A stretch of 47,962 bases of DNA from an uncultured Ruminiclostridium sp. (GTDB taxonomy: Bacteria; Bacillota; Clostridia; Oscillospirales; Ruminococcaceae). Position 1 is the stretch's first letter, and every line of letters begins with the position of its first letter. Position numbers and translations under genes: made by a program. The stretch is taken from positions 1-47,962 of the forward strand of contig CANQKE010000016.1 in the NCBI GenBank assembly GCA_947624435.1. Reading direction: 5' to 3'. A model generated the notes under the pieces. The model had not been told where the DNA came from, ran no database searches, and saw only the letters and a list, made by a program, of their open reading frames with translations. Positions 13,361-47,962 of this stretch are shown piece by piece.

Positions 13361-13389
13361 ATTTTAGCACAGTATGTAAAATTTGTCAA
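13361..13389 (-). promoter_or_regulatory. Promoter of the membrane-protein/larBCE run
   Basis: On the minus strand TTGACA (13384-13389) and TAAAAT (13361-13366) have a 17-base spacer. The -35 box overlaps the stop codon of the DUF3842 gene. Confidence 0.8.
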
Positions 13390-13802
13390 GAGCTTTTTTG
13401 AGCCGCTTTGATTATTTCGTCCACCGCGTTTTGTATCAGCCGTCCGACGCTGCTGTCGGATATTCCCACTATAACGTTGTTACAGTGACTGAACGGTATA
13501 AGTATCCTTACAGCCGGACTTTGCGCCACGGCAAGCGCCATTTTCGGCGTGACCTCGCCCAGCATGGAATCCGCTATCGTTATCCCTATCGGTCCCGTTA
13601 TTATATCGGCGGTGCGGCAGCCGACGATTACCGCGTTTTCTCCGGTAGCGGCTCCGTCAGCTCCGGCTTTGAGCATAGCTAAAGTCGCCGTGCTGTTTGT
13701 ACCTATCGCCGTTACCTCGGCGTCGGGGATATTCTGCTTTATCGCCGTGATAAGCTGTTTGCCTATCCCGCCGCCCTGCGCGTCTATTACAACTATCTTC
13801 AT
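13386..13802 (-). CDS. DUF3842 family protein
   Basis: A 138-residue protein opening MKIVVIDAQGGGIGKQ, a dinucleotide-binding-like glycine loop, followed by ADGAATGENAVIVGCRTADIITGP and a C-terminal helix. The DUF3842 family is conserved in clostridia without an assigned reaction. ATG 13802 is preferred, although its Shine-Dalgarno sequence (AAAGGAGG, 13833-13840) is 30 bases away; a 21-base hairpin in between would bring them together. The frame stays open upstream through the repeat element, giving a 29-residue extension that is encoded by the repeat and shared with the gene at 17317, so it is probably not real. It has its own promoter at 13952-13980. Confidence 0.85.
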   Translation of the reverse strand: MKIVVIDAQGGGIGKQLITAIKQNIPDAEVTAIGTNSTATLAMLKAGADGAATGENAVIVGCRTADIITGPIGITIADSMLGEVTPKMALAVAQSPAVRILIPFSHCNNVIVGISDSSVGRLIQNAVDEIIKAAQKSS

Positions 13803-13811
13803 TTTTATAAT

Positions 13812-13929
13812 AATGCTTGCAAAGCAAGCATTCCTCCTTTCGAGTTTTGTGAGGTTTTGCGAAGCAAAATTGCTGACCGTACTCAGCAAATCACAAAACT
13901 CACAGTCTGAAAAATTTGTTTTTCAGACT
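13812..13929 (-). repeat. Structured leader repeat, copy A
   Basis: In transcript order: an 11-base hairpin (13919-13929 with 13904-13914); an outer stem (13891-13901 with 13842-13852) enclosing two hairpins (13883-13889 with 13870-13876, and 13864-13869 with 13855-13860); a Shine-Dalgarno sequence (13833-13840); and a hairpin AATGCTTGC/GCAAGCATT (13812-13820 with 13824-13832). Copies B and C share the plan and most of the sequence. Confidence 0.88.
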
Positions 13930-13951
13930 TCATCGCCCTACTTTTTTCTTT

Positions 13952-16660: not shown

Positions 16661-17317
16661 TTAAACTAAAATATCGGCAGTTCTTATCCTGTTTCGATAA
16701 TCCGCGTCGATAAGCGCGGCGGCGTGTACCTCGTCTTCCGCGTTGTCAAAAAAAGTCTTTATCTGACGGTCGATAAACCCCACATAATCGGCTATCGCCC
16801 TTGCCGCGTCCTCCGCGTTTATCTTTCGTCCGTCGTGTGTAACGGGGGAGTGCAAAGTTCTTGTAAAGCGCCCGTCCTCCAGCGTATATTTTACGTTGAT
16901 ATTCTCCGGAAGATATTTTGCCTCGGCAGCGGCAAAAATACGCCAGAACCGCTCTGTCAGCATGGACAGCACCGCGTTTTGCGTGCGAAAGCTCACCCTG
17001 AGCCTGCCGAGCGTGTCCTCCTGCGGCAGGATATCCACCGCGTACCTTATCGTCGGTTTGTATTTATAGCTTAGCGGGCTTTTTATCAACAGCGCGCCGT
17101 CGCTCGCCGGTTGTAAGCGGAATATATCCTCGTCAAAAAATCTGCCTATCGCGTCGGTTATGCTGCGCATGACGGTCTCCGGCGTCTGCACCGACAGCCT
17201 TTCCGCTAATATCCTGTCTATAAGCCCGGAACGGCTGGTGTTCATCTTATATGCAAGCGCGTCCACCGCGCGGACTATATCGTCGCTGAGTACAAGACTG
17301 TATACGCTTTTGCTCAT
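16661..17317 (-). CDS. Ribbon-helix-helix protein upstream of clpB
   Basis: A 218-residue protein. Residues about 3-42 fit a CopG/Arc-type ribbon-helix-helix: a short strand YSLVLSDD, then IVRAVDALAYKMNTSRSGLIDRILAERL. The rest (INVKYTLEDGRFTRTLHSP, RAIADYVGFIDRQIKTFF) is an unrecognised, probably cytosolic domain. ATG 17317 is used; the longer frame is encoded by repeat copy B. It is first in an operon with clpB, and the promoter carries an inverted repeat over its -10 box. A natural idea is that this protein represses its own operon, making it a heat-stress regulator; that is inference. Confidence 0.75.
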   Translation of the reverse strand: MSKSVYSLVLSDDIVRAVDALAYKMNTSRSGLIDRILAERLSVQTPETVMRSITDAIGRFFDEDIFRLQPASDGALLIKSPLSYKYKPTIRYAVDILPQEDTLGRLRVSFRTQNAVLSMLTERFWRIFAAAEAKYLPENINVKYTLEDGRFTRTLHSPVTHDGRKINAEDAARAIADYVGFIDRQIKTFFDNAEDEVHAAALIDADYRNRIRTADILV

Positions 17318-17327
17318 TTTTAATACC

Positions 17328-17447
17328 GTGCTTGCAAAGCAAGCACCTCTCCTTTCAAGTTTTGTGCGGTTTTGCAAAGCAAAATTGCTGACCGTACTCG
17401 GCAAAGCGCAAAACGCAAAGTCTGGAAATTTTATTTTTTCGGACTTT
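17328..17447 (-). repeat. Structured leader repeat, copy B
   Basis: Same plan as copy A: a 5' hairpin (17442-17447 with 17417-17422, imperfect above), an outer stem (17406-17414 with 17359-17367, one mismatch), inner hairpins (17398-17404 with 17385-17391; 17379-17384 with 17370-17375), a Shine-Dalgarno sequence (17347-17355) and a hairpin GTGCTTGC/GCAAGCAC (17328-17335 with 17339-17346) ten bases before the start codon. Confidence 0.88.
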
Positions 17448-45524: not shown

Positions 45525-47828
45525 TCAGTCCCGCTCTTTGTGCTTTCCGATAAGGCTCTCGGTAAAGTCGCAAAGCTCTGCGGCGCTCTCGGCGTTTGCC
45601 GATTGAGCAAAAAGATACAGCCCCTTGCCGCGTCGGTCGGAGCGTATCAATACCTTGCCGTTTTCCTGCGAGAGTATTATCCCCTCGCTGTTTTCGCTGC
45701 CGTCTTCGGCAAGGCGGCGCAGCATATCCGGCGCGGCTATTCCGTTAAGCGGGACGTAACGCTTTTCCCGCTCGAATTTCGGCAGGGAATTTACCGCCTG
45801 CTCAAAGCTCATGTTCTGCTTTTTTGCGTATTTCAGCGCGTTTATCACAAGTACGCACCCGTCTGAGATGAACGGCTCTGCGGCGGCGATCTCCCTTGCA
45901 CGGCTGTCCGAGTTGTCGTTGGTGCAGGCGTTATAACGGTGGGCGGTCCTGCCGTAGCTTTCGCAGATCTGCTCCATATCGAACAGCACGTTATGAGGTA
46001 ATGCGATATCGCTGCCGGAAGAGATAAGGTCGAGGTAATTCATAAGCAGCAGCTTTTCTGCCCCTACAACGTCCGCCGAGCGGGTGTATATTTCGGCGGA
46101 CGTTCCGCTGTGGTCTATCGTTATTATCATGCGAGGGCCTTTTTCATCGCTGAGCTTTTCAAATACCGGAGCTATGCACTTTTTGAGCAGCGAGCTTTTG
46201 CAGTCGAGCTGTATAGAATATCCGCTGTTAAAATCCGCAAGACGATGCAGCATAGTGGCGTAAAACACTCCGCTGTCCTGCGCGGTAAGGTGCCTGCCAA
46301 AGCCGTCGTACCGCGCTTTCGGCGCGCCTCCTCGGTTCATTATGCCTTCGAGCTTGCGCTCCTGCGCGCGGGTTATCGGTATGCCGCCTTTCGCGTATAT
46401 TTCCACCGCAGTGTCCGCTCCTACCGCCACATACATTATCAGCCCCGCGTCAGCCAGCCTGCTTTTGTGCAGCAGAACGGATATCGCGGTCTCTCCGCAG
46501 TCAAGACAATCCCTGCCCGCCGCGTTTATGCCGGAAATAAGGCTTTGCATAAACACCTGAGAGCGTCCGTCGGCGCGGCAGCCTACGCATATTATATCGT
46601 CGGATACCGCCGCGGCGGCCGCACCGAGCATGGTCATCACCGCGGGAGTAGCGGATATACCGGTCTGGCCGGAATAACCGTTTTCGTCCAGCTCAAAGCT
46701 GCCGTGCGCATTCTTTTCCATATCGGAACGCATAGTGACGTTGTCGGATATCTGCTTATCCGACCATATTTTAACGTCCGGCATTACGATGCTGCCTTTG
46801 CCTAATGTCGCCCGCTCTCCCAGCACGGCGTTTTCGTACACCGCGCCGCCGCTTTTCACCGACGCGTCGGAGCAGATTATACAGTCGCACAGCCGCACCC
46901 CGTCCGATATGAACGCTCCGCTGCTTATCACCGCGCCGTCTATGGTGCAGCCGCTGCCTATAGTTACGTTATCGCCTATCACCGCGCCGCCGCGTATCGT
47001 CGTATCCGAACCGAGCGTGACGTTTTTCCCTATATAATAAGGAGCGCGCAGGTCGCGGTAATTTCCCGTGCCGGAGTCGTTGTAGCACCCCTCGGCTATC
47101 TTCCGCGCGTCTATGCGGCAGTTGACCCTGCCGTCCAGGATATCCCGCTGACAGCGTTTGTAGGCTTTAAGGTCGCCGATGTCACACCAGTAGCCGTTAT
47201 CCTCATAAGCGTACAGCGGCAGCTTTTGTTCCAGCATTTTCGGGAAGATATCGCAGGCAAAATCCGAAAATTCCTCCTCGGGGATAAGCTCGGTGACCTG
47301 CGGCGACAAAACATATATGCCGGTATTTGCGTTATTTCCGGTACATCCGATATAGGACGGCTTTTCGGTAAAGCCGGTAACCTTGCCGTCGTGACTGTTC
47401 ACTAACCCGAATTCCCGCGGGTCGTCGGTGCGCTTGGTTATTATCGTCGCGGCGGCGGAATGCTCGTTGTGGTATCTCATCGCCGCCGACAGATCGAAAT
47501 CGCACAGCGCGTCCCCGCTTATCACCAAAAACGGCTCGTCCCAGCCGACAGCCGCTTTTTTAACGCAGCCCGCCGTGCCTAATGGCGACTGCTCATAGGA
47601 AAAACGCAGCTTTATCCCCTCGTATTCTCCCGCCGAAAAATACTCCTCTATCTGCTCTCCCTTGTATCTTAAAGTAAACGTCGCTTCGGTGCAGCCGTGC
47701 TTTTTAAGCAGCTCCAATATATAGCAGCATACCGGTTTTCCGCACAGCTTTGCCAGCGGCTTGGGCATGCTCTCGGTAAGGGGCAGCAGCCTTGTCCCGC
47801 AGCCGCCCGCCATGATAACAGCTTTCAT
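45525..47828 (-). CDS. Sugar-nucleotide nucleotidyltransferase fused to a degenerate phosphomannomutase
   Basis: A 767-residue fusion. Residues 1-230 are a nucleotidyltransferase with MAGGCGTRLLPLTESMPKPL. About 250-365 form a left-handed beta-helix of hexapeptide repeats. About 380-760 follow the phosphomannomutase fold, but the expected TASHNP serine loop is replaced (MYVAVGADTAVEI), and the RxDGR segment survives as CRADGRS. Fusions of this type are annotated as mannose-1-phosphate guanylyltransferase/phosphomannomutase. The second half is probably not an active mutase. ATG 47828 follows AAAAGGAGA. Leader contains repeat copy C. Confidence 0.88.
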   Translation of the reverse strand: MKAVIMAGGCGTRLLPLTESMPKPLAKLCGKPVCCYILELLKKHGCTEATFTLRYKGEQIEEYFSAGEYEGIKLRFSYEQSPLGTAGCVKKAAVGWDEPFLVISGDALCDFDLSAAMRYHNEHSAAATIITKRTDDPREFGLVNSHDGKVTGFTEKPSYIGCTGNNANTGIYVLSPQVTELIPEEEFSDFACDIFPKMLEQKLPLYAYEDNGYWCDIGDLKAYKRCQRDILDGRVNCRIDARKIAEGCYNDSGTGNYRDLRAPYYIGKNVTLGSDTTIRGGAVIGDNVTIGSGCTIDGAVISSGAFISDGVRLCDCIICSDASVKSGGAVYENAVLGERATLGKGSIVMPDVKIWSDKQISDNVTMRSDMEKNAHGSFELDENGYSGQTGISATPAVMTMLGAAAAAVSDDIICVGCRADGRSQVFMQSLISGINAAGRDCLDCGETAISVLLHKSRLADAGLIMYVAVGADTAVEIYAKGGIPITRAQERKLEGIMNRGGAPKARYDGFGRHLTAQDSGVFYATMLHRLADFNSGYSIQLDCKSSLLKKCIAPVFEKLSDEKGPRMIITIDHSGTSAEIYTRSADVVGAEKLLLMNYLDLISSGSDIALPHNVLFDMEQICESYGRTAHRYNACTNDNSDSRAREIAAAEPFISDGCVLVINALKYAKKQNMSFEQAVNSLPKFEREKRYVPLNGIAAPDMLRRLAEDGSENSEGIILSQENGKVLIRSDRRGKGLYLFAQSANAESAAELCDFTESLIGKHKERD

Positions 47829-47866
47829 TTATATCTTTTCTCCTTTTCTGAGAAGCTTTTATAATC

Positions 47867-47962
47867 TGCTTGCAAAGCAAGCATCTCTTCTTTCGAGTTT
47901 TGTGCGTTTTTGCGAAGCAAAATTGCCGACCGTATTCGGCAAAGCGCAAAACTCACAGTCTG
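47867..47962 (-). repeat. Structured leader repeat, copy C (cut by window end)
   Basis: Same plan as copies A and B: inner hairpins (47936-47942 with 47923-47929, and TTTTGC/GCAAAA), an outer stem and the TGCTTGC/GCAAGCA hairpin (47867-47873 with 47877-47883). Its Shine-Dalgarno part is weakened (AAAGAAG), and the gene has its own site closer to its ATG. The 5' hairpin runs past the window end. Confidence 0.85.

Follow-up and report, generated by a model that had tools for sequence, protein, structure and literature searches.

A structured, probably selfish mobile element of about 122 bp that occupies the spacer between Shine-Dalgarno site and start codon in Clostridia

Three Element Copies in the Window

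The window, meaning the whole stretch of 47,962 nucleotides analysed here, contains three copies of a structured element, A, B and C, all on the minus strand. In transcript sense, the element opens with a 5' hairpin (AAGTCTGAAAAA..TTTTTCAGACT), which is followed by a stem enclosing two hairpins, the second with the conserved TTTTGCTTCGCAAAA. Next come a Shine-Dalgarno (SD) site, GAAAGGAG, a terminal hairpin (TGCTTGC/GCAAGCA) and the consensus ATGRTNAT-AANN-ATG, in which the last ATG is the start codon of the gene itself.

Copy A (GTCTG...TTATTAT; 13807-13928, minus strand) has the top model score in the genome, 155.2 bits. Its 5' hairpin (AAGTCTGAAAAA/TTTTTCAGACT, helix 1) lies at 13904-13930, the core with the two enclosed hairpins and the conserved TTTTGCTTCGCAAAA at 13841-13902, the element-borne SD GAAAGGAG, which is unpaired in the predicted fold, at 13834-13841, and the terminal hairpin ATGCTTGC-TTT-GCAAGCAT (helix 5) at 13813-13831, all on the minus strand. 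Four bases, AAAA (the AANN of the consensus; 13803-13806, minus strand), separate the right edge of the element from the start codon of a DUF3842 gene (138 aa; 13386-13802, minus strand; PF12953, E 8.9e-50), and the copy is placed between the degraded native SD of this gene and that start codon. Copy B (17322-17444, minus strand; 131.7 bits) carries the SD GAAAGGAG at 17349-17356 (minus strand) and precedes a gene of 218 aa (16661-17317, minus strand) in which no Pfam family was found at E 1e-5. Copy C (47861-47962, minus strand; 103.6 bits) is cut by the contig end and is an exception. It was inserted upstream of the SD of its gene, a nucleotidyltransferase gene with hexapeptide repeats (767 aa; 45525-47828, minus strand; PF00483, E 2.5e-46). 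This native SD, AAAAGGAG, was read directly at 47840-47847 (minus strand), 13 bases past the element edge, and the SD of the element itself is changed to GAAAGAAG (47887-47894, minus strand).

The common layout of the three copies, described in an initial annotation, agrees with a base-by-base check. The same annotation treated them as equivalent copies before genes, which holds for A and B but not for C, where the native SD is kept and the element SD is changed. The promoters that it placed near A and B are present as -35/-10 sequences, but these belong to the native flanks and are also found in the empty sites of relatives. What it missed is that the element lies between the native SD and the start codon, that the SD is replaced and that copy C is a different case.

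Fold and Covariation

The fold is supported by covariation. Three compensatory exchanges proposed from the window were confirmed base by base: T13874:A13885 in A is C47927:G47938 in C, with B as an intermediate mismatch, A13852:T13891 in A is C17367:G17406 in B, and A13813:T13831 in A is G17328:C17346 in B. In 16 copies from the same genome, aligned with MAFFT without use of the structure (which was itself drawn from copy A), double compensatory changes occur at 12 of 44 pairs, and 24 cells are changed on both sides; shuffles give 6.0 +/- 1.8 such cells, and slid partners no more than 2. Among 46 diverged relatives, double changes are found at 42 of the 44 pairs and 94.2% of cells are paired, against 29.9-51.4% with slid partners, in an alignment that was fitted to the structure and so leans towards it. 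Helix 1 shows double changes at 4 of its 11 pairs in the 16 own copies and at 10 of 11 in the 46 relatives; in helix 5, 100% of cells are paired in the own copies. Covariation, which had been suspected from three copies, is far above both the shuffle and the slid-partner controls. The folding energy of copy A is -48.7 kcal/mol, far below that of 200 shuffles (-25.69 +/- 3.02; z -7.62). For copy B by itself the value is unexceptional (z -1.36), being matched by 20 of 200 shuffles.

Copies Across the Genome

A covariance model built from the 16 own copies gave 71 matches (E <=0.01) in the 2.35-Mb gut Clostridia genome to which the window belongs (G000), and blastn with copy A as query gave 49; because both the model and this first query extend into the start codon, copies at start codons are favoured. 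The blastn matches are element copies or fragments alone, and an autonomous parent with diverged ends would escape such a search. The assembly breaks inside element copies at three contig ends (C8:1, C16:47962 and C36:1), so some copies are probably missing or collapsed.

Examination covered 68 of the 71 matches, the other three being a partial unit and, on contig C36, two shadows on the reverse strand. These 68 comprise 53 gene-start copies (an ORF of >=60 aa starting <=46 nt from the SD), 5 inner units of two tandem arrays and 10 others, with classes partly set by hand without a gene caller. The 10 others are L012, L028, L035, L037, L039, three units of the C36 array, L091 and copy C; near L037, L039 and one of the C36 units there is an ORF of >=60 aa, which was rejected as a gene start. 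The outcome that would have spoken against the initial annotation, with most copies away from gene starts or in random orientation, was not seen: 53 of 68 own copies precede a gene start in gene orientation, and the 5 inner units belong to arrays that end at one.

The genes that follow are unrelated and include those for threonine synthase, seryl- and tyrosyl-tRNA synthetases, dehydroquinase and an RsmD-like protein. AANN stands before the ORF start, beyond the hairpin, in 42 of the 53 gene-start copies (44 with L023 and L031, which the filter dropped), and 30 of the 53 show the exact tail RTNAT-AANN-start. GTG is the start behind two of them (L021 and L075). The terminal hairpin lies between the element SD and the native start codon, making the spacing long, about 28-35 nt. 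In 29 of 53, two start codons stand in frame at a distance of 12 bases, giving a possible M-V/I-I-x-M leader; copies A and B have no such pair.

Tandem arrays occur at L013:2991-3496, L024:3002-3383 and L044:1-332, with units of 123, 122 and about 90 bp, respectively, and the L044 units are without the terminal hairpin. A hybrid at L091:28-106 consists of the 5' hairpin of the element after AAAAGGAGAAG, fused to an unrelated terminator-like hairpin. In packed operons (L030:2997-3132, L017:3023-3157 and L009:2997-3133), the left end apparently gives the stop codon of the upstream gene, as judged by eye. Copies of the AATTCTG type were likewise linked by eye to AATTATG sites, a link that looked weaker in relatives.

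Empty Sites and Junctions

The sister genome G085 is approximately 94% identical in this region. Here the site of copy A is empty (locus L133) and the gene has CGGAGGAAAATC-ATG, while the same gene in G000 has a degraded SD, the element and AAAA-ATG. The site of copy B is empty in G009, G082 and G018 (loci L134-L136). Gene starts of 19 further sites were searched in G085, G082 and G009, and 16 of these have a counterpart in G085. Twelve of the 16 are empty, and their ATG is preceded by purine-rich, SD-like sequence; the other four (L023, L030, L031 and L042) hold decayed remains in which the SD is kept. Filled and empty sites, when compared, show the element downstream of the native SD and ahead of the start codon, oriented like the gene. 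Of 18 copies fetched from G085, 15 have a downstream gene that also follows a G000 copy; insertions in this family are therefore partly old and shared, partly recent and private.

The right junction varies little and the left junction is not constant, which means that part of this picture could be due to recombination or later deletion. By eye, native SD or spacer sequence is missing relative to the empty G085 sites at L019 (second copy), L027, L033 and L041. Candidate target-site duplications were seen between filled and empty sites, namely AA (L014), AATT (L038) and GTGATAA (L019, first copy), and they are not constant.

Judged from these sequence comparisons, the element is mobile. One of the two readings given in the initial annotation, a palindromic mobile family that lands in leaders, is borne out by a copy number of about 70, by sister genomes with empty sites and by the presence of tandem arrays and decayed copies.

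Retention of the Shine-Dalgarno Site

Of 53 gene-start copies, 52 have an intact element SD; of the 10 other copies, one does (Fisher p 4.2e-9). Collapsing one array gives 52/53 versus 1/8 (p 1.4e-7), and reclassing three doubtful copies as gene copies gives 53/56 versus 0/7 (p 2.2e-7). The exceptions are L078, a gene-start copy with a changed SD, and L039, a non-gene copy in which it is intact. Upstream structure has been lost in 17 of the 53 gene-start copies, and 16 of these 17 keep the SD, L078 being the one that does not. Copy C and L028 are both upstream of genes whose own SD is still present, and the element SD is changed in both.

The 5' hairpin and the core differ little between the classes. 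Among full-length copies, the mean identity of the 5' hairpin is 0.886 outside gene starts (7 copies) versus 0.884 at gene starts (36 copies), and that of the core is 0.920 versus 0.941 for the same sets. The terminal hairpin is less conserved outside gene starts because the C36 units lack it. From these patterns of retention, the SD is the part that selection keeps.

Relatives in the Genus, the Order and Phages

Matches were found in 27 of 71 genomes of the genus and in 17 of 394 sampled genomes of the order, the latter covering 13 of 168 genera including the own genus; strict filters make all of these counts lower bounds. An ORF plus SD is present at 46 of 66 genus loci outside G000 and at 13 of 20 order loci, these 13 coming from 10 other genera. 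Of the remaining 20 genus loci, 14 are from families that have the core only, and the other 6 have a contig end, a short ORF or a variant SD. Scanning named genomes with a sequence pattern gave 26 stretches from metagenome-assembled genomes labelled uncultured Ruminiclostridium sp., Clostridia bacterium or Oscillospiraceae bacterium, many of them from rabbit gut and rumen.

The sister families, in which the core is shared and the SD module is absent, are represented by these 14 genus loci and by two order loci (L218 and L228). A tRNA gene is present in 8 of 18 loci scanned. In five, the element starts <=5 bases from the encoded CCA: L063:329-464 (Met), L071:1501-1691 (Arg), L127:1404-1547 (Gln), L218:1501-1632 (Leu) and L228:1501-1631 (Leu). 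At L065, the first of several tandem units follows a tRNA, and at L069 the gap is longer. The flank of L131 ends in a tRNA-like CCAAG, where the scanner called no tRNA, and L060 and L128-L130 have a different common flank.

Seven viral contigs contain an exact match to the 26-base 5' hairpin that typifies the diverged relatives, and all 7 give model matches (E <=3.2e-6). Six of them have an ORF plus SD, and L260 is without a clear SD. A viral pattern based on the own core found 0 contigs, and among named phages and plasmids there was no blastn match to copy A or to two of the phage copies. The 3' module GAAAGGAATGGTYATAANNATG is present in 13 phage contigs, of which L261 and L272 alone match the model, so this module by itself is no proof of the element. 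In phage contigs L264, L266, L269, L271, L274 and L275, GAAAGGAATGGTYATAANNATG is accompanied by a different shared upstream sequence (TTTC..TTTTGTGCCTT or similar), which could pair with the SD.

How the Element May Persist at Gene Starts

Taken together, the family is very probably a selfish, structured, non-autonomous mobile element of about 122 bp that replaces ribosome-binding sites, and this reading is preferred over that of a conserved regulatory leader. Insertion would put the native SD too far from the start codon. Ribosomes would then use the element SD, initiating at the native start or, in the many copies that have it, at the in-frame ATG some 12 bases before it; efficient initiation across the long spacing from the element SD to the native start is assumed here. 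The native SD would decay and the element SD would become indispensable, after which the core would be free to decay, leaving a new ribosome-binding site as a fossil. Each insertion recreates the target of SD plus start codon, and further copies can therefore stack as tandem arrays. Movement, at the DNA or the RNA level, would depend on the conserved hairpins.

The other reading in the initial annotation was a regulatory leader RNA, in the present case a conserved cis-acting switch, riboswitch-like or SD-sequestering, that would have spread to many genes and been retained for its regulatory role. The transcript orientation, the strongly covarying fold and an SD adjoining that fold are what such a leader would show, and in the diverged L208, L122, L210, L222 and L272 the junction CCTTT can form 7-9 base pairs with the SD. 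Among the relatives of the own family that were tested, this pairing is 4 bases long and no better than in shuffles. Over all 48 elements scored (54 were given, and 6 had no SD by the pattern used), the mean longest pairing was 4.83 versus 4.27 in shuffles. A conserved leader also fits poorly with the loss of much of the upstream structure in 17 of 53 gene-start copies, with the absence of the element at 12 of 16 orthologous genes in G085 and with downstream genes that have no common function. No Rfam family matches it at gathering in the window, and tRNA alone was found at E 0.05 in 14 relative loci. A conserved leader is thus quite improbable. Young copies may regulate, although a regulatory effect of these is the less likely case.

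The position between SD and start codon and the structured ends would also suit a self-splicing or self-excising RNA, a mini-intron whose removal restores the native spacing, in the way that IStrons render their insertions harmless. This is hardly credible. At several filled sites (A, L027, L033 and L041) the native SD has degenerated or disappeared while the element SD is kept, intact ORFs still follow copies without the core, and neither group I nor group II introns were reported by the Rfam scans. If the element were an ordinary miniature transposon that recognises a short DNA motif (AANNATG) irrespective of gene starts, survivorship would produce the observed pattern, since insertions within coding sequence would be lost; three non-gene copies (L012, L035 and L039) do also end at ATG. 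In 303 kb, AANNATG occurs 112 times at possible starts, element copies included, and 89 times at other non-coding positions, by crude gene calling. With 89 such positions, survivors away from starts should far outnumber the few seen, and the GTG starts behind L021 and L075 do not fit the motif. This explanation is therefore unlikely, though a DNA target motif that includes the SD is compatible with the crude gene calling behind the count.

Comparison with Known Systems

Rfam 15 has no family matching the element in searches of the window, copy A and the relatives. The window gave tRNAs only at gathering, and the relatives gave tRNA and RNase P only; for copy A, 15 weak matches below gathering appeared at E up to 10, the best being STnc300 (E 0.093) and TD-2 (E 0.1). 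The element of about 122 bp has no protein ORF of its own, and no intron family was found in it by the Rfam scans. The ends seen in the aligned copies, AAGTCTG on the left and GRTNAT on the right, do not form the terminal inverted repeats of a MITE, as judged by inspection.

As candidate movers, Y1 transposases and reverse transcriptases (RVT_1) show no correlation with copy number. G000 has a single Y1 gene, G085 with its 27 element copies has none, and G014 with 0 copies has 7. The lone Y1 gene of G000 is not flanked by the element, its flanks being similar to it at chance level (best blastn E 0.20). RVT_1 gave no match in G000 or G085, a search that a divergent or phage-borne enzyme could escape.

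REP sequences are not known to have a fixed placement and orientation at start codons or to supply an SD. REP/BIME sequences, which are mobilised by RAYT, are alike in being short, palindromic, intergenic, non-autonomous, present in many copies and clustered in tandem (PMC2817692). The present element differs in that no RAYT link was found for it and in having a fixed place and orientation at start codons and its own SD. BOX, RUP and SPRITE of pneumococcus are small interspersed repeats that have been read as parasitic, and they share with it the alteration of operon leaders and insertion into one another; in the accessible part of that account, placement between SD and start codon is not described and the ORFs made by BOX are without good candidate SD sequences (PMC3049150). 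The nearest positional precedent is the TAACTGA heptamers of marine Beggiatoaceae, which occur in many copies directly upstream of the start codons of genes of mixed function, at the ribosome-binding site, and carry no SD (PMC4679880). These are seven-base tandem repeats with little SD character, whereas here a folded element of about 122 bp brings the SD (PMC4679880). IStrons and group I introns are comparable as mobile elements made harmless to the host by an RNA-level device; IStrons rely on self-splicing and carry IS genes, in contrast to a replacement ribosome-binding site with no protein gene (PMC4227781). A literature search, with subscription journals mostly outside its reach, returned no description of this element. 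It is placed among the small interspersed mobile repeats, with a fair chance of being a kind of its own.

Implications

A wider reading can be put forward tentatively. The element may represent a selfish class at home on the translation start, one that targets the spacer between SD and start codon, replaces the ribosome-binding site, rebuilds its own target and leaves such sites as fossils, and that is common to an order of Clostridia and to phages. Together with the sisters at tRNA CCA ends, it would form a superfamily that homes on translation signals, possibly by an RNA-based route. This would be a parasite that is harmless by carrying the part that it breaks, which differs from splicing or the avoidance of genes. 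It would offer a route for the wholesale replacement of the ribosome-binding sites of housekeeping genes, the traces of which would resemble ordinary leaders, and the way in which a DNA element could locate start codons becomes open to test. It also calls for caution, as repeated structured leaders in gut Clostridia are not automatically regulators.
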